The notes under the pieces were generated by a model. That model made no database searches. It worked only from the letters and a program-made list of their open reading frames with translations, and was not told the DNA's origin. A stretch of 21,237 bases of DNA from assembly GCA_027604665.1 (NCBI GenBank), contig JADGIZ010000178.1:1-21237 (forward strand), in the 5' to 3' direction. The translations under genes and the position numbers were made by a program. The stretch is from Polyrhizophydium stewartii (Eukaryota; Chytridiomycota; Chytridiomycetes; Rhizophydiales). Position 1 is the stretch's first letter, and each line of letters starts with the position of its first letter. Below are positions 569-20,947 of the stretch, piece after piece.

Positions 569-2936
569 CTACTCGGACTCGTGCCCGGACTCGGATGCGG
601 AACCGGAATCGTCCGAGTCGGATACGCTGCCGTTCACGCACGCTCCAAACTCGGCGCTGTCGTCCATGATCCCCCGCGCGCGCCGCATGCCCGAGGGAGA
701 GCTCAGATCGATCGCATAGTCGCCGGCAATGAGCCTCAATGCGGCCTCGGGCACAAGCACGTTCTGGATGTAGTCAACAACCGATTGGGGCTCCGTGGTC
801 GACTTGCGCAGCTCCGCGTTCGGGCCGCGGAATAGCGCCTGGATGGTTTTGAAGATGATGTTGCCGCCCTTCTACTCGCCAGACGCATGTGCACGCCGAG
901 TGTGAGCGGGCGAGGCGGCGTCAGCACGCGAGCCCTCCCAGGTGATCTGCAGAATGCAATCCGACACAATGCAGCGCACCCAGCCATAGTAGCCGCACTG
1001 GAGTTTGGATAGACGTGAGAAGCGAGTTTCGTTGGCTGGCGCGTGTTGCGTGTCAGCATGTTTTAAGGCACAGACAAGCAGCTCGGGAGGACTCGAAATC
1101 GGGCAAACCTTGTGCTTTCCAAACGCCCAAGTTGCGGAAAGATGCAAGCGTGGCCTCGAGGAATGGCGACGCAACGCGGCCGCGCAGAATATCAACAAAC
1201 ACGGACCGCATGGCCTCGACGCGCTCGCGGACGCGGCGGAGGTCAATCTCGGCGGGATAGCCTTGCTCGATGCCTCGCGGAATGACCGAAACCTCGGATG
1301 CGTGCAAGCGGCACACCCGGAGCCGGGCCTGCATCAACTGCTCGCGCTGTATGCGGCCGCGGGCAAAGCGGCGCTCGCAGCGGCGGTACTCTTCGATGGC
1401 CTTTTGTAGCGCGGCTGTTGGAGGCACACGCATGCGCGCTGTGCAGTTTGGATCGATAGGGCACGGCGCAAGCTCGGTGCCATCGTCGGCCAGTTCGAGG
1501 GAGTCCGTAGATGCGCCTTCGTCGTCCGAGTCGATTAAAACAATCGGATGTGGCGCTGCTCGCCCCGAAGGCAGGCTCGGTGTCGCTGTCGCGGACGAGA
1601 TGGTAGAGGGCGCCCCCATCGATGCCGGCAGAGTCAGCGCCAGCGTTTCAGCGTGCACGTCTTGCCCGCTGGCGTCGCCATCGGCGTCGGCGGCTGAAGC
1701 CTGGCTTAAGTTGAGCATATCTTCGTAGCCACCAAACTTGTTGCGGGGAATGGGAATCGTCATCTTGAAGCGCGCGGCAACCTCGTCGGAGCGAGACGCC
1801 TGCGAGCGCACAGGTGACCCGTCCAGCGGCGGCGGCGTTGGTTCCTTGTCCTGGCGGTCGAGCCGACGATCCCGGCGTCCTCGCGGTGTGTTTTTGGATA
1901 GGTCTGACGGTGATGACGGCGCCCGCCTTGTGAGCTTGGCAATCGAGCTCTGCTTGCGTCCGGGTGTTTTTTGAGCCGGCCGCGGGGTGGTTTGGAGCGC
2001 CTCGAAATCATCGTCATCGTCTTCAATGTCGTCATCGTCGTTGGCGAGTTTCAAGGGCTTCTTTGGCGGCTTCGCGTCTTGCTGCGACTCGAGAGTATAT
2101 TGAGGCAGAGGAGACTGTGACGGCGGTTCCGATGCGGCGCCACCATCAAGCCGAGTTTTTACGATCGTCAGTTTCGGTTTTCGGGGCGGGCCGATCATGT
2201 TCGCGCGGGATGTGCCGACAGCCTTTGTCGACTTCTTGGCCTCTGTTCGCTTGGATGGGGCAGATGCCTCGCGAGCCGGCGCCGCGATGCGACCGGCGGG
2301 AGCATGCCTGAATGCGTGCGCTTCCTGTCCAGGCCACTCGTCTCGCCGGGGCGAGAGCTCTTTGTCCGAGCCCAGTTCGAGTGTGATGTAACGCTTCGCT
2401 GTCCGAGGGGCGTCTCGGTCGCCGGCCCGCGGGCGAGCGCCCGGGCGGCGCACGGTGCTGCGGCTGGCGGCCGCTGCGGGCGCTTCATCGAGAAGCGGGT
2501 CGCTGGGCCGAAAGTACTTTGACGTGGTGCGCTGCGCGGGACCGTCCGCGGCACGGGCTTCGGACCGCGGGCGGGCGTCGGACACGGGCTGTTCGGACAT
2601 GCCGGTTCGCGACCTGACCTCGGCGGGGCCAGCCTGCTGGTCTCTCTTGCGGAAGGTCGGCAGATCGCGGGGACCGAATAGAGGGAATTCTAGCGCCTCT
2701 CGCTGTGGTGGGCGCTGCGGCTGCTGCAGGTGCGGTTCCTCCAGCCGGCGTGGTGGACGGCGGCTCGCGGCGGCGGCTGCCGGTGTCGGATCGTCTTCGC
2801 TGCCGCTGCTGCTTCTGCCGCCCCCGGTGCGGCTGCGCTGAGCGTTGCGGCTGCGACCTGAGGAGATATCATAGGAGGCCGCGCGCTTGGCCAGCGGCAA
2901 CGGCGCCGAGGCGGCTGCACGGGCTTTGGGCGGCAT
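569..2936 (-). CDS. RTC4-like domain protein (728 aa, 3 exons)
   Basis: The exons, read on the minus strand, are 2936-1109, 1035-980 and 871-569, joined in phases 1 and 0. The start ATG at 2936 sits in a GCCATGC context. Residues 1 to about 490 are a low-complexity, basic and Ser/Pro-rich region with several K/R clusters and an acidic DDDDIEDDDDD run, consistent with a disordered nuclear tail. The C-terminal part, about 492-728, matches the RTC4-like domain. It has a CPIDPNC segment, C-R-L-H, then IPRGIEQGYP (552-561), the hallmark GYYGWKGG (624-631) and NVLVPEAALRLI (665-676), followed by an acidic Ser/Asp/Glu tail. The GYYG motif is rebuilt only by splicing: reading through the 872-979 intron gives GYYGWVRC and ends at the acceptor TAG. 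Yeast Rtc4 was named from a telomere-capping screen and its molecular role is poorly known. The gene is divergent from DPH2 and shares a short promoter with it. Confidence 0.85.
872..979 (-). other. Intron 2 of the RTC4-like gene (108 nt)
   Basis: The donor is GTGCGC after TGG, the branch motif is GTGCTGACGC, and the acceptor is GAGTAG. The length is a multiple of three and the only in-frame stop is the TAG formed by the acceptor itself. The frame is therefore open through almost the entire intron. Confidence 0.8.
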
Positions 2937-3060
2937 GGCGGGCAGTCGTCAACGGCCTCCAGCGCCTTGTCGCCTGCGACTGCGCTCACGTGGCCCCACG
3001 TGGCCCCACGTGGCTGGGTCGCTTACATTGTCGATCAATTTTCGTTATGTTTTTCTGGCA
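2937..3060. promoter_or_regulatory. Divergent promoter with three helically phased CACGTG boxes
   Basis: Only 124 bp separate the two start codons. Perfect palindromic CACGTG hexamers lie at 2987-2992, 2997-3002 and 3007-3012. Each begins exactly 10 bp after the previous one, as a tandem CACGTGGCCC repeat whose third copy is CACGTGGCTG. CACGTG is the core site for bHLH factors of the Cbf1/Pho4/Myc type. With 10-bp spacing all three sites face the same side of the helix. They probably act on both DPH2 and the RTC4-like gene. Confidence 0.6.
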
Positions 3061-5098
3061 ATGGACTTTTCGTCGCCTGCGGCAACGGACCGCACGCTGG
3101 ACGCTGCGCCGGCGCTCCAGCTGCCGCCGCGCGCCGCGGCCACCGCGGCGGCGCTCGCGGCCGAAGCAGGTGCAAGCCACGTTGCACTACAGCTACCGGA
3201 CGCTCTGCTCGCGTCGGCGCCGTCGCTCGCACACGACGTCCAGCGGCTCTCTGGCATCGAAGACGTTGTTGTACTTGCGGACACCACGTTCGGCTCGTAG
3301 GTGCATGCCCTCGCGCCAGCCTTGCACGGTGATACGCGCTCGCTGACGCCGTCTGCCCTGCTCGCCTGCTCCACCTGCCGCTCGCAGATGCTGCATCGAC
3401 ACTGTTGCCGCCGAGCACGCCAACGCCGACTTTGTTGTGCACTTTGGCCCTTCGTGCCTGTCCCGGTGAGTGCGGCCGCCCTCCAGACGCGGTCGCTCAT
3501 GCCGACCCTCTCTGACCCTCCCAGCGTGCTCCCTGTGCGCCAGCCCCTCTGCCCCGTGCCCCGTGCTGCTTGTGTTTGACGAGCTGCCTGTCGACCTGGC
3601 CGCCGCAACCGACTTTTTTTTGTCAACCTTTGGCGGCGACCGCGATCAGCCCGTGCTCGTGCTGTGGGACACCCCCTTCCACCACGCCATGCCGCGCCTG
3701 CGCGCCGCGCTCGACGCCGCCGGCTTCTCGCGCACTGTCTGGCCTCATGTCCGGACGCTTTTCAACATGCCCGCCGGCGCTGATCCGGCCGCGGTCGCCA
3801 TGCACGCCGCGGATCCGGTCGGCCCAGACCCGGACGCTGCTGGATCCGAAGCTGGCGACGTCGCGCCGGTCCGCGAGGCCCAGGGCCGCAGATACTGTCT
3901 CCCCCCAGGAGTCGCTCTCGAGGATCTGTCGCTTTTCTACGTCGGTGGCGAGAGCCTGACCCTGACCAACATCATGATGACCCACAGCCAGTGCAAGCTC
4001 GTTGCCGCCTTTGACCCGACCACCAACGCCGGCCGCATCGAGACGGGCCGCGTCAACAGGCTGCTCATGCGCCGCTACGTCATGGTCCAAAAGGCCCGCG
4101 ACGCGGATGTTGTCGGCATCGTCGTGGGCACGCTCGGTCTCGGTGAGTCCCACTTTAGATCGACTTTGTATTCCCCTGAGCGTCAGCTGGGCATGCGGCA
4201 TGGGAGGGGACAGGTGCGCCTGAGATGATGAAAGCAAAGTGCCTTAGGAAGAGCCGGCTGAGGCGTCGAAAGACGCCCGTGCTGGATGCAAACTTCGCCT
4301 GATCTGTTGCGCATCGCCCTCGTCCCACGTGCGCGCGCCCGGCTGTCGACGGATGCCTCTCAAGCGCCGCGCGGCCTGCTTGCTGACAAACCAACAACGA
4401 CAGCATCTTATCTGCCCGTGATCGAAAACCTCAAACGCCTCGTGCTCGCAAGCGGCAAGAAACCATACATGCTCGCCGTTGGCAAGCCGTCACCCGCCAA
4501 GCTCGGCAACTTCCTCGAGATTGATGTCTTTGTGCTCGTGGCGTGTCCGCAGAACGCACTGCTCGAGTCACGCGACTTCCTGAAGCCCGTCATCACGCCG
4601 CATGAGCTGCAGGTCGCCCTCGATCGGGACGCCGAGTGGGACGCGTCCAAGTACGAGCTGGATCTCGTCTCGATCGACCGCCATCTGACCAAGGTCATCG
4701 ACAGGACCTTGGAGCGCAACGCGGAGCGGGGCCGTGGCGGAGACGACGAAGACGCTAGCGACGACGACGAGCCGCACTTTTCGCTCATCACCGGAACCTA
4801 CAAACAACACCGCAAGTTCGTCACTGTCGTCTCGAGCGACGGCGCCGGCCAGCCTGTCCCCGATGGCACCGTCGCAACGCGGTCGCTCGACTCGACAGTG
4901 TCGCGCTTTGTAGCCACCAGCGCCGCCGCAGAGTTCCTCAACGAGAAGCGCACCTTCCGCGGCCTCGAAGTGCGCATGGGCGAGACGTCGATCGCCGATG
5001 TCCAGGAAGGCCGCCGCGGCATCGCACGCGGATATGTCGTTGGGCAGTCGCCCTCTGACACGCAGGAACAAGGAGGCCCAGGCAGCGCCAAGCACTGA
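3061..5098 (+). CDS. DPH2: Diphthamide biosynthesis protein 2 (535 aa, 4 exons)
   Basis: The exons are 3061-3296, 3388-3465, 3544-4142 and 4404-5098; all phases agree and the sum is 536 codons. In the Dph1-Dph2 radical-SAM-type [4Fe-4S] complex this subunit supports transfer of the 3-amino-3-carboxypropyl group of S-adenosylmethionine to a histidine of elongation factor 2, the first step of diphthamide synthesis, in the cytosol. Recognisable family blocks are [13 protein letters not shown] (cysteines 80-81), [14 protein letters not shown] (Cys102), a block around GTLGLASYL (about 300-308), then [18 protein letters not shown] (321-338) and [13 protein letters not shown] (Cys352). An acidic [10 protein letters not shown] segment follows. 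Length fits the family (about 490-535 residues). The third intron, 4143-4403, is 261 nt, the longest in the window. At the second intron the acceptor at 3543 is chosen because the nearer CAG at 3524 breaks the frame. Confidence 0.93.
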
Positions 5099-5294: not shown

Positions 5295-5404
5295 TCGGAA
5301 GCCCCCAACCAGCGGCCGGAAGACCCCTTGAACGGGCCGGAAGCTGGCCGGAAGCTGGCCGGAAGTCTTCCGGAAGACTCCCGAGGCGTGCCGGAAGCTT
5401 GAAG
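5295..5404 (+). repeat. Degenerate 10-11 bp tandem array of CCGGAAG units
   Basis: Exact CCGGAAG occurs six times, starting at 5316, 5337, 5348, 5359, 5370 and 5391, with spacings of 21, 11, 11, 11 and 21 bp. Degenerate copies fill the gaps: TCGGAAG at 5295, CTTGAACGGG at 5327 and CCGAGGCGTG at 5381. The clearest unit is CCGGAAGCTGG. All copies lie on one face of the helix, 160-290 bp before the alcohol dehydrogenase ATG. GGAA cores of this type are ETS/GABP-like sites in animals; no fungal factor is implied by this. Confidence 0.75.
5364..5379. repeat. Perfect 16-bp palindrome in the CCGGAAG array
   Basis: AGTCTTCCGGAAGACT reads identically on both strands. It is formed where one array copy meets the reverse complement of its core. 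It could bind a dimeric regulator, or may simply be a by-product of repeat drift. Confidence 0.7.
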
Positions 5405-5559
5405 TTCAAAAAGGCCGCCCGCTCCACCCCGATCCCTCTCCCAAATCCACAAGGTGCGACGCCTCCAGCACCGGGGCAGCGGCCGCCTGCGAGGCCTCAG
5501 CGCCGGCGGGGAGTTCCGGCGCAGCGCGCAGTGGGCTGACTCGTGGCTGTCCGGCGGGC

Positions 5560-6603
5560 ATGGCCCACGCAGCCGAGCAGACCATGAAGGCCGCCATCAT
5601 CAGCAAGCCCCACGGCGACTTTGAGATCGTCGAGCGGCCGATCCCGACGCCCGGCCCGGGCCAGGTCGTGCTCAAGACCAAGGCATGCGGCATCTGCCAG
5701 GGCGACTCCATCGTCAAGGACAACCACTGGCACCTGCCGTACCCGCGTGTGCCCGGCCACGAGATCATTGGCGCCGTGCATCAGGCTGGCCCAGGTGTCG
5801 AGGCGCCGTTCAGCACCGTCGGCAAGGTGTTTGGCGTTGGCTGGGCAGGCGCCAGCTGCGGCAGCTGCGCGAACTGCGCGGGCGGCCGGCGCGACCAGTG
5901 CCGCATGCACATCATGACGGGCATCAACTTTGACGGCGGCCTGTCCGAGTACGTGCTGGTCCACGCCAGCGCGCTCGTCGAGATCCCCGACGGCATGGAC
6001 GCGGCCGAGACCGCGCCGCTGCTGTGCGCCGGCATCACGGTCTTTGGCGCGCTGCGCAAGAACGGTATCCTGCCGGGCAGCATTGTCGGCATCCAGGGTC
6101 TCGGTGGCCTTGGCTCGATCGGCGTGTCCATGGCGCGCAGCATGGGCTTCCGCACCGTGGGCATTTCGACGTCCGACTCGAAGCGCGACCTGGCCTTCTC
6201 GTTCGGCGCCGAGGCGTTCGTGAACACGAGCGGCGACGGCGCCGTCGAGAAGATCATGGCTGCGACGGGCGGCCACGGCCTCGACGCTGTCATTGCCACG
6301 GCGCCGTCGGCGGCCGCCGTCGAGGCGCTGCTGCCGGGCCTCGCGTTCGGCGGCGTTGTTGTTGTCGTTGCCGCGCTTGACCGCAACCTGAGCCTCAACC
6401 CGGGCCTCATGCTCAAGAACAACCTCCGTATTGTCTTCCAGACGGCCGGCGCCGCGCACGAGAACGCAGAGAACGTGCGTTTCGCCAAGGCGTTTGGCAT
6501 CAAGCCGCTTGTCGAGCGCTTCCCGCTCGAGCGTGTCGGCGAGGCGTACGACCGCATGATCACCAACAAGGTGCGCTTCCGCTCCGTGGTGGTGTTCGAG
6601 TGA
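5560..6603 (+). CDS. Zinc-dependent alcohol dehydrogenase, MDR superfamily (347 aa)
   Basis: Intronless coding frame for a medium-chain dehydrogenase/reductase that oxidises alcohols or reduces aldehydes with a nicotinamide cofactor. Catalytic zinc ligands are Cys43 (in CGICQGD), His67-Glu68 (GHE) and probably Cys156. The structural zinc lobe has Cys100, Cys103, Cys106 and Cys114. The Rossmann loop is GLGGLG (180-185). The end of the second Rossmann strand has Ser/Ser/Lys/Arg and no acidic residue, which favours NADP(H) over NAD(H). Length is normal for the family. The annotated start is the first ATG (5560). If the candidate 5' UTR intron (5453-5572) is real, that ATG is removed and translation starts at the ATG at 5584, giving MKAAIISKP, the usual N-terminus of this family. 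The precise substrate cannot be read from sequence. Confidence 0.9.
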   Translation: MAHAAEQTMKAAIISKPHGDFEIVERPIPTPGPGQVVLKTKACGICQGDSIVKDNHWHLPYPRVPGHEIIGAVHQAGPGVEAPFSTVGKVFGVGWAGASCGSCANCAGGRRDQCRMHIMTGINFDGGLSEYVLVHASALVEIPDGMDAAETAPLLCAGITVFGALRKNGILPGSIVGIQGLGGLGSIGVSMARSMGFRTVGISTSDSKRDLAFSFGAEAFVNTSGDGAVEKIMAATGGHGLDAVIATAPSAAAVEALLPGLAFGGVVVVVAALDRNLSLNPGLMLKNNLRIVFQTAGAAHENAENVRFAKAFGIKPLVERFPLERVGEAYDRMITNKVRFRSVVVFE

Positions 6604-13751: not shown

Positions 13752-16700
13752 TCACGCATCGTTTTGGAGAAGCCCGGAAGTGCTCGGACGCCGCCGCACG
13801 TTGAGGCTGGGCACCACGAGACCGTCGCCACCAGAGAGGACGCGCATGCTCGGCGCACGGCGAGCCGAGAGTGTGTGCGCCGACGCGCCAAGTAAGGACG
13901 GCGACGCCTGTGCGGAGCTCTGAGCCGACGGCTGAATGCCTTGGGCCTGCGCCTGCAGCGGCCGCGCCATGCCCGGGATGCCATTGATGGTGGTCATGCT
14001 CATCGTGCCGGCGGCCGCGATCGCGCTCGGATGCGCGGACATGCTGCTGTTGAGCGCATCGCGCGACTCGCGGCTGAGCTTGCGTGTTCCCCCGGATGCG
14101 CCACGTAATGCCTGCATCGACCCCGCGCGCGCGCCGGCGAGCAGCGTCGGGCTGCGCGAGCCGGCCGCGTCGTCGCCGATGGGCCGCAGGCCTTGAGGCC
14201 CAACCATGCTGGCGCTGAGATCGGCGGCAGCGGGCAGCGAGGGCGTGAACGGCCCGCGACGCGGTGTGGTGGTGAGCTGGTGCATGCTCGACGAGACGAT
14301 GCCGAGGCCCACTGCGGTCGTGTTCCTGGCGAGCTGGTCCGGCTGCGTGGTCTGAGAGAGCATCTGCATCGATCGCCGGCGCACGTGTGCTTGCGCAGCG
14401 ACGCTGGTCATGGACGACGTCTTGCGCGGCTGGCGTGCAACCGACTGCGCGAGATCCGGAGTGCCCTGGTCCTGGGTCTCGCTGGGACCCGAGATGTGTG
14501 ACTGGTCCGACGAAGTTGAGTTGCGCTCTGGCGCCACAAGCGAGTTTCGCCCCGCGGGCTCCGCATCTGATGTCGACTTGGACGCATCGATCCCGGGCTC
14601 CTGATCCAGACCAAACTTGACGCTGTTGAGCGAGCACGAGAACATATCCAGCGGCGTTGCGGGCATAAGCGACAGCGTGGGCGTCTCCTTGGCAGCAGAA
14701 TCGGGCTCTGGCGCGCTGAGCGACGGCACGGCGACTGGGTTCGTCGCAATCGCCAGGCCAGCATTCTTTGGAGCAGGAACGAGTCGCTTTCCTGCATGCG
14801 CCGGCATAACCTCGTCCAAGCTCTGCGAGCCGGCGTCAGGGATCGGTTCTAGGACCGCGACTCCGGATGCTGGCCCGCCTATGCGTGAGCGAAATCTGGA
14901 TTGATTGTCCTGCGCCTGCGTCCCAGCGTCGCCGCTGCCGACACTGCCAGCCGAATCGATCTCGGATGAGGCACTTGATCCACCAGACGACGAGCGCCGG
15001 GTTGAGTCGCCGATCTGTGGTGGCTGAGGCTGATGTGGCTGCGGCACACGCAGATTGCCTGTTGATGCTGCAGTCATCTCGTTTGCGACCAGCCGCTCGA
15101 AAACGTCGTCCGGTGCCAGCTCGAGGATGTACGATTCGGTCACCGCAGGCGTCACGCGGTCATGCAGCGTGGTCACAAACGCCTCGTCCTCGATAATCAG
15201 ACTGCGCGTGCTCGGCGAGATGCAGACCTTGCCCGGCGGCGCGACTTCCTGCAGCCGCTCGGCGAGATCGACCGTGTCGCCGAGTACGTTGTACCGGAAG
15301 TTCTTTGGCCCGCCCATGATCGCGGCGTAGCACGAGCCTGGCGCACGCCAACAGCATTGTCAGCGCGTGTGCTTATGATCAAGAAAGAGCCAGCCGGGCG
15401 GCCGCGAGTTTTTAGCAAGGCACAGCGCAGAATGTGTCTCACCCGAGTTGACGCCGATGCGGATCGAGACGCGCGACGGAAAGTTGTTGATGACAAACGA
15501 GAGGCTGTTGAATGTTTGCTCGACATATGCCTGCATCTGAAGAGCAACCATGCACATCAGCGCCGCGCCGAGGGACGGGTCCAGATCGTTCTTGAACGAC
15601 GAGCAGGCGACATAGGCGTCTCCGATGGTCGTGATCTGCAAATGAAGCGGAACGAGAAGGCTGTCAGCAGCAATATTGATGTGGTTTCCCTGTTGACTGT
15701 CGGCGGGGAAGCCGTTGGCCCCACAAGGCTTTGGCAGTGCGCACCTTCTCGACATGGTATTCGTCCGTGACGCTGTCGAAAAAGGTGAAGAGCGTGTTGA
15801 GCATCTCGACAATGATGATGGGCTCCTTGTCGCCCGACATGACCGTGAAGCTGTCGGATCATACAGTCAGCAGCCGACATGAGTCTCTGTTGCGTTTGTG
15901 TGCAGGAAAATCGATGCCGAGCAAATCGGCGGGCCTTACCTGACAATGTCGAGAAAGAGCACCGAGATCGACTCGAGCTCCTCGTACACGATCGATGTGG
16001 GCTCGTCGACGAGCCGCGTGATGACAGTCTCTGGAAGCACAATGTGCAGCAGCTTGGAGCATTTTTCGATTTCCTCCCAAAGCAGATCCGACTGGGTCTC
16101 CATGATGACGTCGAGCAGGTACTCGATCCGCGTGGCGCGCATAGATCGTATGAGGCAGATATACAGAATGCCGCTCATAAAGACGACCGTGGCGGTGATG
16201 TGGCCCGTGGTCTGGCCAAGCAGGTGCTGCATCACAAGCAGGGTGATTCCAAGCAGCGCCGCGGCACGAGTCTTGAAGTGGAACGGCATGCCTTGCATGC
16301 GGAGGATCGAGTACGCCGCAAGCTGCGGGACGGTGCCGCCGGTCATGAACTCGTACTCTGCGAGGCCAATCATGGGCAGCGTGACCGCGATGGCGCAGAC
16401 GGCGATGGTGACGACGAGCACGATAAAGTGGAAGAAGCGCACGTGGAAGGCCGTGAGGGGGTTCTCGACCTCGCGGGCCCACAGCGCCATGAGGACGGAC
16501 CCGACGGCGACGAGTGCGGTCACGCCCAGGCACCCGACCAGAATTGCAAATGCTACCGGTGACGAGAGGAGGTTGCCTCCAGACTTCACATACAGACTGA
16601 CGCCGCCGAGGGCAACGAGCAGCACCTGGAGGATCAGGATGCCGGCGACGCTGTGCATGTACACCTTCCATGTGGCCGTGACAAAGTCGCAGATGAACTG

Positions 16701-19700
16701 CTCCTCGAGCGCGTTGTTGAGAAACTGCAGCGTGTGCATGTTCATCTCGGTGTAAATGACCTTCATGTACCGGCGCATCGTGTCCTCGGCGTTGCCGGAC
16801 CCGCCGAGCTCCTCGACCTTTTCGCACATGCGCATGACAACGTCCGTGACGACCTCGCGCGCCTCGATGCTCGTTTGCATCAGCTGCGCGTCCTCGCGCG
16901 CTGTGAGCTGGCGCTTGAGCGCCGACCCGCTCGGCGCGTCGTCGTTGTCGGCGTTGTCGTTGTCGATGGTTGCACTGGCTGCTCGCACACCGCCCTGCGG
17001 AGCAACGCGCGATGCGCGCATGGTCGACGCGCGCACGACGGACTTGAGCCGCTTGGGCACCGAGTCGCCGATGCTTCCGTATGCGTCGCTGAGCAGGCCG
17101 TCCGAGTTCGAGTCCGAGTCCGAGTCGAACGAGTTCTTTGTCTCGGGCTTTTTCGAGCTTGCAGCGGCCGAGCCAGATGCGGCGCGGGTGTCTGGGGCGA
17201 ATGCGACCGAGGGCTGTGCGCTGGCGGCCTTGCTCGGACTACTCTCGCCGCGGTCGTCCGCCTCTTCATCCTCGTTCTCTGAGTCCTCCATGATCACGGC
17301 GCGCTTGGTCTTGCGATGCAGCCCAAATCCCTTGGCAGAGAAGATGCTGCCTCGGCGCGGCTCTGGCTGCCTGCTCGCTTGGGAGACATCCCCATTGCCG
17401 CCGCCACCGCTGGGCTCGTCCGGCTTGTTGAAGAAGTGGATCTGGTTGATAGAGAACCCACGCGACCGCCGCCGCTCGGACGAGCGGCCAATGGTGCTCC
17501 GCGGCGAGACCACCGCCGAGAGCGCATTTGAGTGTGTGATATGGCCCAGTACGTCGTGCGGCATGTTGTTGAGGCTTGGACTGAAGTGCAGTCCAGACGC
17601 TGAGTGCGTCAGCCCGCTCTGCTCCAGATGTGCGTGCGACCCGGTGTGGCTGCCTCCCGCGGCGGCGTTGACGCTCTTGCGGCGCGAGTCGGGGATGGCC
17701 GTACTGCTCAGTCGGCCCGAGTGCTTGCCATGCGTGCCGCTGTTGTTGAGCTCACCCTCCTGCCCGCCTTCTTCGTCGCACTCGGGCATGTTGTCGAGCT
17801 CGGCGAATCGCGGCGCAGACGATCCGTCGGATGCAGGCGGGTTGCCGGTTGATGATGGGCCGCCGTCGGTGTGCGCCGCACTGGCGTTGTGCCTCGTGGC
17901 GAGCAGCAGCGACTTTAAGTCGGTGCCAGACTGCGATCCGTGCAGGCGGTTGGACTGTGGAGCGCCGAGCGCCTGTTGCTGCGGTGCCGTGTGAGCTGGC
18001 GGAGCGGCGCCACCGGGCCGGTCGTATCTGCTCATGCTGCGTGCGATCACAGTGGTCACGAGCATGCTGAAGCGCTTGCGGTTGTTGTAGGCCGCGTTGG
18101 CCTGCGCGGTGGCGTTGGCACCGCCATAGACTGGAAGTGTAGTGAGATTGTTGCGGCTGCCGTTCCGGCTGGTGACATCATCGACCTGCGTTGGCGGCGA
18201 TGCCGTGCTTCCTCGCCGGGACGAGCTGTCGATCACGAGCCGTGACAGGTCGCCGTCGCGCACGACCGATGGCCGCTGCATGGAGTGTGTCAGCAACAGG
18301 TCGCGTGGACAGAGATCACAGCTTATGCAACATGCCATTGCTGTTGGGCTTGGTGGCTCCAGGCTCTCGCGGCTGCCGAGGCGGGCAGCGACGTCGGCGA
18401 GATGCTTGGCGAGGGATCCCTGAGGCGCAATCAGCTTGGAGGTGGGCACGCGCATCAAGTGCGAGCTCGGCGAACGGTCGTGCAGCGTTGGGATACCCGG
18501 TCCTCCGCCGAAAGCCGCGGCAGCCGGACCAGAAATGCCCGCGCTTAACGGCTGCGGCGGCTTGGTGGCCGCAGGTGCAAGCGGGTTGTCGCGAATGATC
18601 TTGGCGAGGTTGACCCGCTTCCACTTGCTCGAGAGCCCGCCGCCGCCCTTTCCTTGGATACCGGCAGGGGCATCAGTCGTGCTGGTGCGCTCGCCGACCC
18701 GGTTGGTGACGTTGAAGAGCACAACCTTGCCCTTTCCTTTAACAAAGACGAGGCCGAGGCTCTCTGAATCGAATTCGGCACTGATGCCCTGCGAGACGAC
18801 ATCTGACACAATGATTTGGTTCTGGGCCGCGATGCCCAAGTGGCGGCTGGCCATGTTGACAACGTCGCCGTAGATCTCATAGACAAACTTTTTCTTTCCG
18901 ACGATGCAGGCCACAAGCGGGCCGACGGCGATGCCGAACCCGAGCTGGAAGTCGACGCGCTTGGTGATGCCTGCATCGACGACAACGTCGCGCGGTGCAC
19001 GGTAATGTGTCTTGAGCGCGAGCGCCATCTCGATCATTTGTGTCATGTGCTTGGACGATCCGCCCAGGCCGCCGACAATCAGAAACTTGTACGAGATGGT
19101 CTGCACGAGAGTATGTGCGCGTCAGCGCGGGATCGGTGCGTGGATGCTGCGCAAGCTTGAGCATCAACGGAGGCGAACCTTGATTTTCTCGAGCGATTCG
19201 TATGCGCCAATGGACTCGTCGATGTACTCAAAGAGGCTGTTGATGATGACGATGGTGTGCTTCATGGAGCCAACGCTCTCGGCAATGTCTTTGAAGTTTT
19301 TGAGCTCGCCGAACATGACGGTTGCTGCATGCCAACCAGAGAGTGTCAGCATGTTACGCTTAGCTGAAAGTGCCAGCTTCACGCGCACTATCGCGAGGCT
19401 CTCACCGCTCTCGTGGCGATGCGCGATGAGATCAAAGTTGACCTGGCCCTTGAGCTTTGTGATGATGGACTTTGGCAGGCAGACGGACAAGAGGTAATCT
19501 GCCTTGGCGCGCTCGGCTGTGTTCTCGCGCAACTGAGCATCGACAAACTGGCGCTTGAGGAACCTGCGCCGTGCACTGCATGTGAGCGCGTGTACTCGCA
19601 CAGCGACCCGGTGCAGCGGGCTCACCCTATCCGGCGGATGCGGTCGTTTGAGAAGGAGACGTTGTGCATGAGTGCGGTGATGGCCAGCATGGGGATAATG

Positions 19701-20947
19701 TAGATGGCCAGCGAGCTCCAGACAAAGGTGCCATTGCTGGAGGCGCCTATGCCGACAAGAACGGCCTTGGCGGCAAAGATGGCGTAAATGCCGGCCATCC
19801 GCACCGCCGCTTCGATATGCGTGGTCGAGAGGCCGCTGGACATGGCAATAAGCGTGACAAGGAACAAGGTTGTCGTGCCGATGCAATCGAACACCCCGTC
19901 CAAGTAAAAGAACTCGATTGAGCCAACAAGAATGAAAGAAAGAAACTGGACGAGAACAGCGTGCGAGTCAGATTTGATCAAACACATGATGGCGAAGCGA
20001 CCACGGCGCACCTCGAGAAATTGGATGAGGCCATACCACCATTTTGATCTCGTTGCAACCCAAATATAGTATGCGCCGCGCCTGAAAGAGGTGAATACCA
20101 AGTAAACCAGGGCCGAGACCAAAATTATTGACCAGAGCACTGCACTGAGCTGGCGCTCGTAGAGTTGCGTATTTGCAAGAGTGAGGCACAGGACATTGAG
20201 GCACAGCAGGCGCAGAAAGAGAACACGCTGGCGCAGGAGGGTTGAGCAGACGTAGTTGTTCTCGAGCTCCCGCGTTTTGAAGTGCAGGGTCCATGGGTTG
20301 ACGAGCTGCGTCCAGTCGAGCGAGTTGTCCTGCTGCAGCATCTCGTCAAAGGGGATTTCGTCGCGGCTGTCCGAGAGGCCCGATGCGTTTGCAGGGTTCG
20401 AGGAGTCGTAGCCCACATCGATGGCCAGCTGGGTATGCTGCTTTGTGCCAAAAGACGGTGATTGCGAGACATGAGTTTGGAACTGCGAGGCCGATGCTAC
20501 GCTGGTGAAGTTGGAGTGCCTGCCGGCGCCGACCGACTTGCGCGACTGCCGATCGTGAGGAAAGACTCGGCCGGAGTGTGGGTTACGTGGGACCTCTGCG
20601 ACGGATGCGATCATACCGAAAAGCTGTCGAACGACGGCGGGCTGTTTGAACTGAGAGCGGGAGCGAGATCGAGAGCGCTTGCGACTGGGTATTGCGGGGA
20701 CGTGGAGCGTGACGTCCATTTGCATCGAGGCCGCCGAGTGGGAGAGATCCGGCTCGATGGCGTGGACGTGGCGCTGGGGCGGCGCTAGAGGGGCATGCTG
20801 GTCTTGCCGGGTATCATCTTCGCGGGGTTGCGGGAGCTGGGGCGGGGACTGCGGTTGCGGCTGCGGATGTTGCGGTGGGGTGGCGGCCGGCGCGAGGGTT
20901 GTCGGTTGGGCCTCGGCGTCCTCGCAGCGATCTGGTCTGGGCGGCAT
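13752..20947 (-). CDS. Twelve-helix class III (adenylyl-type) cyclase, 2,223 aa, 7 exons
   Basis: The exons on the minus strand are 20947-19626, 19563-19406, 19324-19179, 19100-15940, 15850-15745, 15635-15443 and 15337-13752; every phase matches and the sum is 2,224 codons. Domains in order: a disordered basic N-terminus (1 to about 235), six hydrophobic helices (about 238-430), a linker helix with LLSVCLPKSIITKL, and cyclase domain C1 (about 494-660). A Ser-rich linker of some 650 residues follows, then a second six-helix set (about 1364-1529), a second linker helix with LLHIVLPETVITRL, cyclase domain C2 (about 1586-1760) and a disordered tail. C1 has FGELKNF, EKIK (Lys542), YEIYGDVVNMASR (Glu617, Asn624, Arg628). 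C2 has LFLDIVSF (Asp1593) and TIGDAY (Asp1637). The enzyme should make cyclic nucleotide, most likely cAMP from ATP, at a membrane. The architecture is that of animal transmembrane adenylyl cyclases and is unlike the peripheral LRR cyclase Cyr1 of Dikarya. Confidence 0.9.
15843..15950 (-). other. Exon junction that rebuilds the first metal Asp motif of C2
   Basis: The 89-nt intron 15851-15939 (GTAAGG, branch TGCTGACTGT, acceptor CCGACAG) interrupts LFLDIV and SFTVM. Splicing in phase 2 restores the textbook LFLDIVSFT motif; without it the frame stops at TAA 15936-15938. Confidence 0.85.
17101..17130 (-). repeat. Short GAGTCC hexanucleotide repeat in the cyclase linker
   Basis: About four imperfect tandem copies of a CGAGTC-type hexamer encode alternating Asp-Ser (DSDSDS) on the minus strand. 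It is a small in-frame coding microsatellite in the disordered linker. Confidence 0.6.
18276..18335 (-). other. Candidate 60-nt GC-AG intron inside the long cyclase exon
   Basis: The minus strand reads ATG, then GCATGT, then a TGCTGACACA branch motif, then CCATGCAG before CGG. The 60-nt stretch is in frame and stop-free. It encodes a Cys-rich segment (ACCISCDLCP) out of character with the Ser/Pro-rich linker around it. GCATGT is the GC version of the common fungal donor GTATGT. If removed, the protein is 2,203 residues. Confidence 0.5.

Follow-up and report, generated by a model that had tools for sequence, protein, structure and literature searches.

A gene on contig JADGIZ010000178.1 of the chytrid Polyrhizophydium stewartii very probably (at a rough probability of 0.84) encodes a class III cyclase that is membrane-bound and has a single working active site, its two catalytic halves being reversed as compared to the animal enzymes and its second catalytic domain, C2, corresponding by descent to the first catalytic domain, C1, of animals. 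The stretch of DNA analysed, hereafter the window, is 21,237 nucleotides long. The catalytic residues are divided between C1 and C2 in the opposite way from animals, this division is conserved across chytrid genera, and with the catalytic columns masked each chytrid half prefers the opposite animal half.

The gene was spliced by hand. Its product has two membrane blocks, each followed by a catalytic domain:

13752..20947, minus strand: whole cyclase coding gene, 7 exons, 2223 amino acids, GT-AG introns spliced in open frame
20947-19626, 19563-19406, 19324-19179, 19100-15940, minus strand: exons 1-4, hand splice
15850-15745, 15635-15443, 15337-13752, minus strand: exons 5-7, hand splice
19628..20362, minus strand: first membrane block, residues 196-440, hydropathy segments 237-433
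18657..19478, minus strand: C1 catalytic domain, residues 470-690, substrate half, PF00211 E 5.5e-29, signature E Y G / K E N R K
16905..18656, minus strand: long linker from C1 to the second membrane block, residues 691-1274, low complexity by eye
16047..16904, minus strand: second membrane block, residues 1275-1560, hydropathy segments 1353-1532
15054..16049, minus strand: C2 catalytic domain, residues 1560-1790, metal half, PF00211 E 1.8e-36, signature D D R / T N D R

Both catalytic domains score above the curated PF00211 cut-off of 21.9 bits (C1 101.5 bits, C2 125.9 bits). The membrane part appears by hydropathy as two hydrophobic blocks, within which the helices are not countable, and about 200 amino acids at the N-terminus are of low complexity by eye. 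A deposited P. stewartii protein, P0068 ("adenylate cyclase type 9"), corresponds to residues 112-2223 with 98.96% identity over 2112 columns; a second deposited model of the same gene, P0069, departs in places from the hand splice. PF00211 is the only Pfam domain listed for either of them.

Eight catalytic positions of the mammalian enzymes were scored, namely the two metal-binding aspartates, Arg484, Lys938, Asp1018, Asn1025, Arg1029 and Lys1065, and residue equivalences were taken from HMMER alignments to the adenylyl cyclases AC5, AC8 and AC9. Arg484 and Lys1065 make phosphate contacts. The roles of the two metal aspartates, of the base-recognising pair and of the Asn and Arg are given for cyclases in the available parts of two papers (PMC6592433, PMC12264004). 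In the animal sequences compared, C1 carries DDR and C2 carries KDNRK. The window C1 has Glu, Tyr and Gly at the first three of these positions and Lys, Glu, Asn, Arg and Lys at the other five; the window C2 has Asp, Asp and Arg followed by Thr, Asn, Asp and Arg, its Lys1065 column being alignment-dependent and hence unused. The two residue sets are complementary but reversed, and the full catalytic set is obtained only with C1 and C2 combined, with Glu for Asp at one place. The positions are as follows:

19305..19307, minus strand: Glu500, first metal Asp position, C1 (splice and alignment)
19179..19181, minus strand: Lys542, base-binding Lys at the Lys938 position, C1 (splice and alignment)
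19089..19091, minus strand: Tyr546, second metal Asp position, Asp lost, C1 (splice and alignment)
18843..18878, minus strand: Glu617, Asn624 and Arg628 at the Asp1018, Asn1025 and Arg1029 positions, C1 (splice and alignment)
18738..18740, minus strand: Lys663 at the Lys1065 position, C1 (alignment)
15948..15950, minus strand: Asp1593, first metal Asp, C2 (splice and alignment)
15618..15632, minus strand: Thr1633, base Lys lost, and Asp1637, second metal Asp, C2 (splice and alignment)
15459..15461, minus strand: Arg1690 at the Arg484 position, gamma-phosphate, C2 (alignment)
15255..15290, minus strand: Asn1712 and Asp1719 at the degenerate Asp1018 and Asn1025 positions, and Arg1723, Arg kept, C2 (splice)

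An original prediction on this DNA had already proposed that C1 and C2 exchange roles, naming residues 500, 542, 546, 617, 624 and 628 in C1 and 1593, 1633, 1637, 1712, 1719 and 1723 in C2. All these numbers are reproduced by our splice, and the alignments to AC5, AC8 and AC9 place the residues at the positions it named. Its range of 15337..19324 is slightly too short, since Asn1712, Asp1719 and Arg1723 (15290-15255) lie just outside. Two extra positions agree with the swap: Arg1690 in C2, where C1 has Gly, and Lys663 in C1.

Protein searches recovered relatives from Batrachochytrium, Spizellomyces, Phlyctochytrium, Thoreauomyces, Geranomyces, Rhizophlyctis, Powellomyces, Nowakowskiella, Gaertneriomyces, Blyttiomyces, Dinochytrium, Chytriomyces, Chytridium, Entophlyctis, Podochytrium and Physocladia. 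The Gaertneriomyces orthologues P0070 and P0071 are annotated as a single protein with RasGEF and SH3 domains, which may be a fusion or a faulty gene model. Our tally holds 27 chytrid-type proteins including that of the window; P0068 and P0069 (same gene) and the C1-only fragments P0013-P0015 stand outside it. Of the 27, 21 are readable at all positions, the incomplete ones being P0006, P0008, P0009, P0010, P0011 and P0081; Rhizophlyctis P0006 is without part of two motifs, probably by model error. Asp, Asp and Arg are kept in C2 of all 21 fully read proteins, and C1 shows K-[DE]-N-R-K in 19 of them; P0082 deviates at the first position and P0083 at the last. P0083, from Phlyctochytrium bullatum, is a paralogue of the window gene and not an orthologue. 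The original prediction also described the other site as degenerate. This stands for the second metal Asp and the Arg484 equivalent in C1 and for the base Lys and the transition-state Asn in C2, each lost in 21/21. It does not extend to every position: the first metal Asp is absent from C1 in 3/21 only (the window protein, that of B. dendrobatidis, and P0082, which seems to have a faulty model at this place) and its loss is therefore a local feature, Asp is present at the 1712 position of C2 in 18/21, and the 1723 position holds Lys, not Arg, in 17/21. Since the swap is conserved across chytrid genera, chance is untenable as an explanation of the pattern.

It is likely that C1 and C2 fold as an intramolecular pseudo-heterodimer with a single working active site. 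C2 would give the two metal-binding Asp residues and the phosphate Arg, and C1 would give the Lys/Glu pair that recognises the base, Asn and Arg for the transition state, and the Lys that contacts phosphate. One complete site with exchanged roles, as originally proposed, is supported by the metal side (21/21), by the substrate side (19/21) and by the predicted structure of an orthologue, where C1 is paired with C2 as in AC9. The structural search speaks for the paired fold and not for the swap, because it is sequential and superposes C1 on C1. When C1 is placed on C1 of an animal structure, the catalytic site would lie in the forskolin-binding pocket, because the metal and substrate roles are exchanged, and the decayed pocket would lie at the animal active site. 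ATP is the likely substrate, as Lys542 is an ATP-type residue.

The P. stewartii genome (12.86 Mb, 690 contigs) gives 16 exon-level PF00211 matches on seven contigs. Hand splicing gave two further two-domain cyclases, whose boundaries are approximate. The cyclase on contig C82 (about 1957-4937) has the animal order, with DDR / KDDL in the first domain and STK / KDNRK in the second. In trees of the separate halves its first domain falls with animal C1 (99/93) and its second with animal C2 (88/79); in the joint tree with paralogues the second is weakly placed (46/83 with animal C2). The cyclase on the minus strand of contig C160 is reversed (EGR / KDNRK, then DDR / SEEF). It is a divergent paralogue of the window gene, both of its halves falling with the window family (95/89 and 98/93), and its C1 has Asp at the Glu617 position. 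P0083 resembles it in the metal half. As the same genome has animal-order and reversed enzymes, the reversed one is a paralogue beside an animal-type enzyme and not its rearranged replacement.

The likeness of the halves was scored with the catalytic columns set to X in all rows except those of C82 and C160. Chytrid C1 prefers the animal C2 profile, and chytrid C2 the animal C1 profile, in 17/17 cases each (17 of the 27 proteins were scored). An alveolate-type set of 121 proteins was treated in the same way; it consists of 120 listed of 692 matches plus Theileria equi P0085, mostly unnamed metagenome proteins with Blepharisma, Stentor and Theileria among the named ones, and all counts for it apply to the matches listed. 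Here the pairing is crossed in 118/121 first domains and 121/121 second domains. The animal-order controls score collinear, C82 with 146.5 vs 79.7 for C1 and 119.6 vs 72.6 for C2, and the protist-like P0016 with 97.9 vs 77.8 and 85.5 vs 77.8, so the crossed result is not inherent in the method. Profile-profile sums of chytrids against animals are likewise crossed (290, collinear 194), also when the six residues flanking a site on either side are masked (110, collinear 79). Between chytrids and alveolates the collinear sums win (355 vs 251; 134 vs 112). Between alveolates and animals the sums are still crossed, while for the substrate half alone with masked flanks the collinear pairing is favoured (134 vs 112, then 108 vs 78). 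Single-sequence comparison with AC9 and AC8 agrees with the crossed pairing. A profile comparison of the two membrane blocks among the same three groups did not yield a signal from which their orientation could be read.

Trees were computed without the catalytic columns, as three joint trees and as separate metal-half and substrate-half trees; the residue swap itself does not depend on them. In total, 19 approximately unbiased (AU) tests were finished (4 + 2 + 8 + 5), and three more groupings were already present in the best tree. In the first four tests chytrid C1 was separated from P0091, its relative in Neocallimastix, which made them unfair; the analysis was redone with a cleaned set. All p values below are uncorrected. 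Metal halves of chytrids, alveolates, animals and C82 join at 94/89 once paralogues shorten the branches, and the smallest p (0.0079) belongs to the placement of fungal C1 together with alveolate and animal metal halves. A grouping of fungal C1 with animal C1, which the original prediction had named as evidence against itself, is seen in none of the three joint trees and is disfavoured (p 0.011; 0.038 with paralogues added). That test was slightly mis-aimed, since such a grouping would leave the residue swap standing and point to reciprocal decay in place of a reordering of domains. Resolution is poor among the substrate halves. Our results suggest a probable common descent of the metal half, C2, and animal C1, in which case the order of the halves differs and not only their pattern of decay.

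Some single proteins deserve mention here. P0091 is a partial protein of Neocallimastix californiae in which a hydrophobic stretch is followed by a single substrate-half domain, with the base pair Lys/Asp, not Lys/Glu. It groups with chytrid C1 in the joint tree (98/94) and in the substrate-half tree (97/89), and is unplaced in the joint tree with paralogues. The metal half of P0083 joins the chytrids; its first domain falls beside C2 of P0016 (82/82) and was omitted from the substrate-half tree. P0093, a metagenomic protein of 940 amino acids, has a truncated first domain with substrate-type residues and a second domain with metal residues; it is unplaced in the metal-half tree and is perhaps a further reversed lineage.

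Several observations weigh against the reading preferred here, some of them by favouring an alternative discussed below. None of the 19 AU tests passes the Bonferroni correction, and the descent of the halves is for this reason likely and not proven. The 94/89 metal-half clade lies just under the support threshold and excludes the metal half of P0016, which falls among bacteria, and one tree sets fungal C2 weakly beside C2 of P0016 (82/61). Fungal C1 with animal C2 was recovered in none of the joint trees, the pair not being rejected (p 0.142), and one clade of fungal C1, animal C2 and alveolate C1 is disfavoured (p 0.0155). The crossed similarity could in part be ancestral sequence retained around the working sites. 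The model of the orthologue is nucleotide-free, with a mean predicted local distance difference test score (pLDDT) of 63.3 and a predicted template modelling score (pTM) of 0.47. Finally, Glu stands at the 617 position instead of the adenine-side Asp in 20/21 fully read proteins, which makes the choice of nucleotide uncertain and weakens the prediction of cyclic AMP (cAMP) synthesis without reversing it.

Among the other explanations, an ancient inversion shared with the alveolate-type P4-ATPase guanylyl cyclases, possibly also with others, fares best and is still somewhat unlikely. The same order and a similar decay are found in the 121 alveolate-type proteins (in the first domain the second metal Asp is absent in 121/121 and the first is kept in 117/121), the collinear chytrid-alveolate profiles agree with it, and the AU tests do not reject a clade uniting chytrid C2 and alveolate C2 (p 0.128; 0.147 with paralogues). 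On the other hand, chytrid C1 with alveolate C1 is disfavoured (p 0.013), and alveolate C2 is nearer to animal C1, joining it in the joint tree (98/89) and adjoining the animal-order group in the metal-half tree, which has a bacterial root (86/81) and where the reversed chytrid enzymes branch outside these two. It is unlikely that a single-domain cyclase was duplicated independently within chytrids and that its copies happened to take the opposite roles: chytrid, alveolate and animal metal halves join, and the profiles of fungal C1 and fungal C2 (110) are less alike than those of fungal C1 and animal C2 (170). This independent origin would suit the disfavoured single clade of substrate halves and the fungal C1 with fungal C2 grouping, which is not rejected (p 0.296; 0.19 in the set with paralogues). 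A quite doubtful suggestion is that the reversed order is the older eukaryotic two-domain layout, kept by chytrids and alveolates, that the animal order is derived and that chytrids hold both as ancient paralogues. It needs one change of order, because the metal-half tree puts the reversed chytrids outside the group of alveolate and animal-order enzymes; P0016 would then be a separate case.

Decidedly improbable is reciprocal decay, i.e. an ancestral enzyme with two sites and the same C1/C2 order, in which animals and chytrids lost opposite sites and C1 corresponds to C1 by descent. It needs no domain reordering, the AU tests do not reject a union of fungal C2 and animal C2 (p 0.295; 0.076 with paralogues), and the best AC5 stretch for the window C2 is AC5 C2 and not AC5 C1. 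Yet the profiles are crossed in every chytrid protein scored, the metal halves of the four groups join, and fungal C1 with animal C1 is disfavoured. That both sites are dead and the protein acts as a receptor or scaffold is very improbable given the complementary catalytic sets conserved across chytrid genera, even if Glu617 is unusual and the cyclase activity is a predicted one. An artefact of gene model or assembly has practically no weight: the gene was spliced by hand and P0069 differs in places, but P0068 matches closely and orthologues from other assemblies show the same order.

Elsewhere in the genome, contigs C41 and C200 carry two single cyclase domains of guanylyl-type look (KVETIGD, YCLIQGDTVNTASRM), and exon-level matches on contigs C474, C83 and C256 indicate about four G-alpha genes, possible cyclase partners. 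In the window, the plus-strand frames 5332-6600 and 3470-4225 match a zinc-type alcohol dehydrogenase and a diphthamide synthesis protein, respectively; no Pfam match was found in 8 of the 10 neighbouring frames scanned.

A chytrid cyclase with halves reversed relative to animals has parallels. Linder et al. 1999 reportedly dealt with ciliate and Plasmodium enzymes in connection with reversed order. The original prediction stated that inverted order is known from ciliate and apicomplexan guanylyl cyclases, and the available part of a paper on Toxoplasma gondii indeed calls the cyclase domain order of ATPaseP-GC inverted (PMC6592433). In the 121 alveolate-type proteins the substrate half comes first and the metal half second, as in the window cyclase. 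These guanylyl cyclases differ in carrying P4-ATPase domains, which are not among the Pfam domains of P0068 and P0069, and in having a GTP-type Glu at the base position (121/121) where the window cyclase has Lys542; in their second domain Lys stands at the Arg1029 position in all printed patterns (111/121 proteins). One published reversal is thus that of a guanylyl cyclase; here a reversed cyclase of adenylyl type (Lys) is conserved across many chytrid genera. A full-text literature search returned no description of reversed chytrid cyclases, a weak absence as most subscription journals lie outside the search.

Dictyostelium guanylyl cyclase GCA has two domains like the window cyclase, and its residue order is reportedly swapped. 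The enzyme is described, in the parts available, as a two-domain, 12-helix guanylyl cyclase (PMC11988041, PMC1435932).

Animal membrane adenylyl cyclases share with the window cyclase the succession of membrane block, catalytic domain, membrane block and catalytic domain, the pseudo-heterodimer fold (judged from the orthologue model) and the base Lys. They differ from it in the order of the metal and substrate halves and in having Asp, not Glu617, at the second base position. Human AC10 has no membrane blocks and matches the window cyclase more weakly than AC9, AC5 and AC8 do. The C82 enzyme is a two-domain cyclase of the same organism with the metal half first and the substrate half second. 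The occurrence of both orders in one genome, with C160 as another reversed paralogue, is new and makes the two layouts comparable in one organism. If the reading preferred here is true, the catalytic pocket and the allosteric pocket have swapped positions within one scaffold, and the origin of the forskolin-type pocket and of G-protein control, as well as which order came first, become open to direct comparison.

Among fungi, the available text of Soanes and Talbot 2010 reports six PF00211 proteins in B. dendrobatidis, none with leucine-rich repeats (LRR), and groups their cyclase domains with metazoan and amoebozoan ones; its cyclase section, as available, does not mention a reversal (PMC2939053). 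The LRR adenylyl cyclase of the Cyr1 type is, like the window cyclase, a fungal class III cyclase. It is an LRR protein, whereas no LRR is among the Pfam domains of P0068 and P0069. If the preferred reading holds, chytrids would have a source of cAMP unlike the LRR enzyme of yeasts and moulds.

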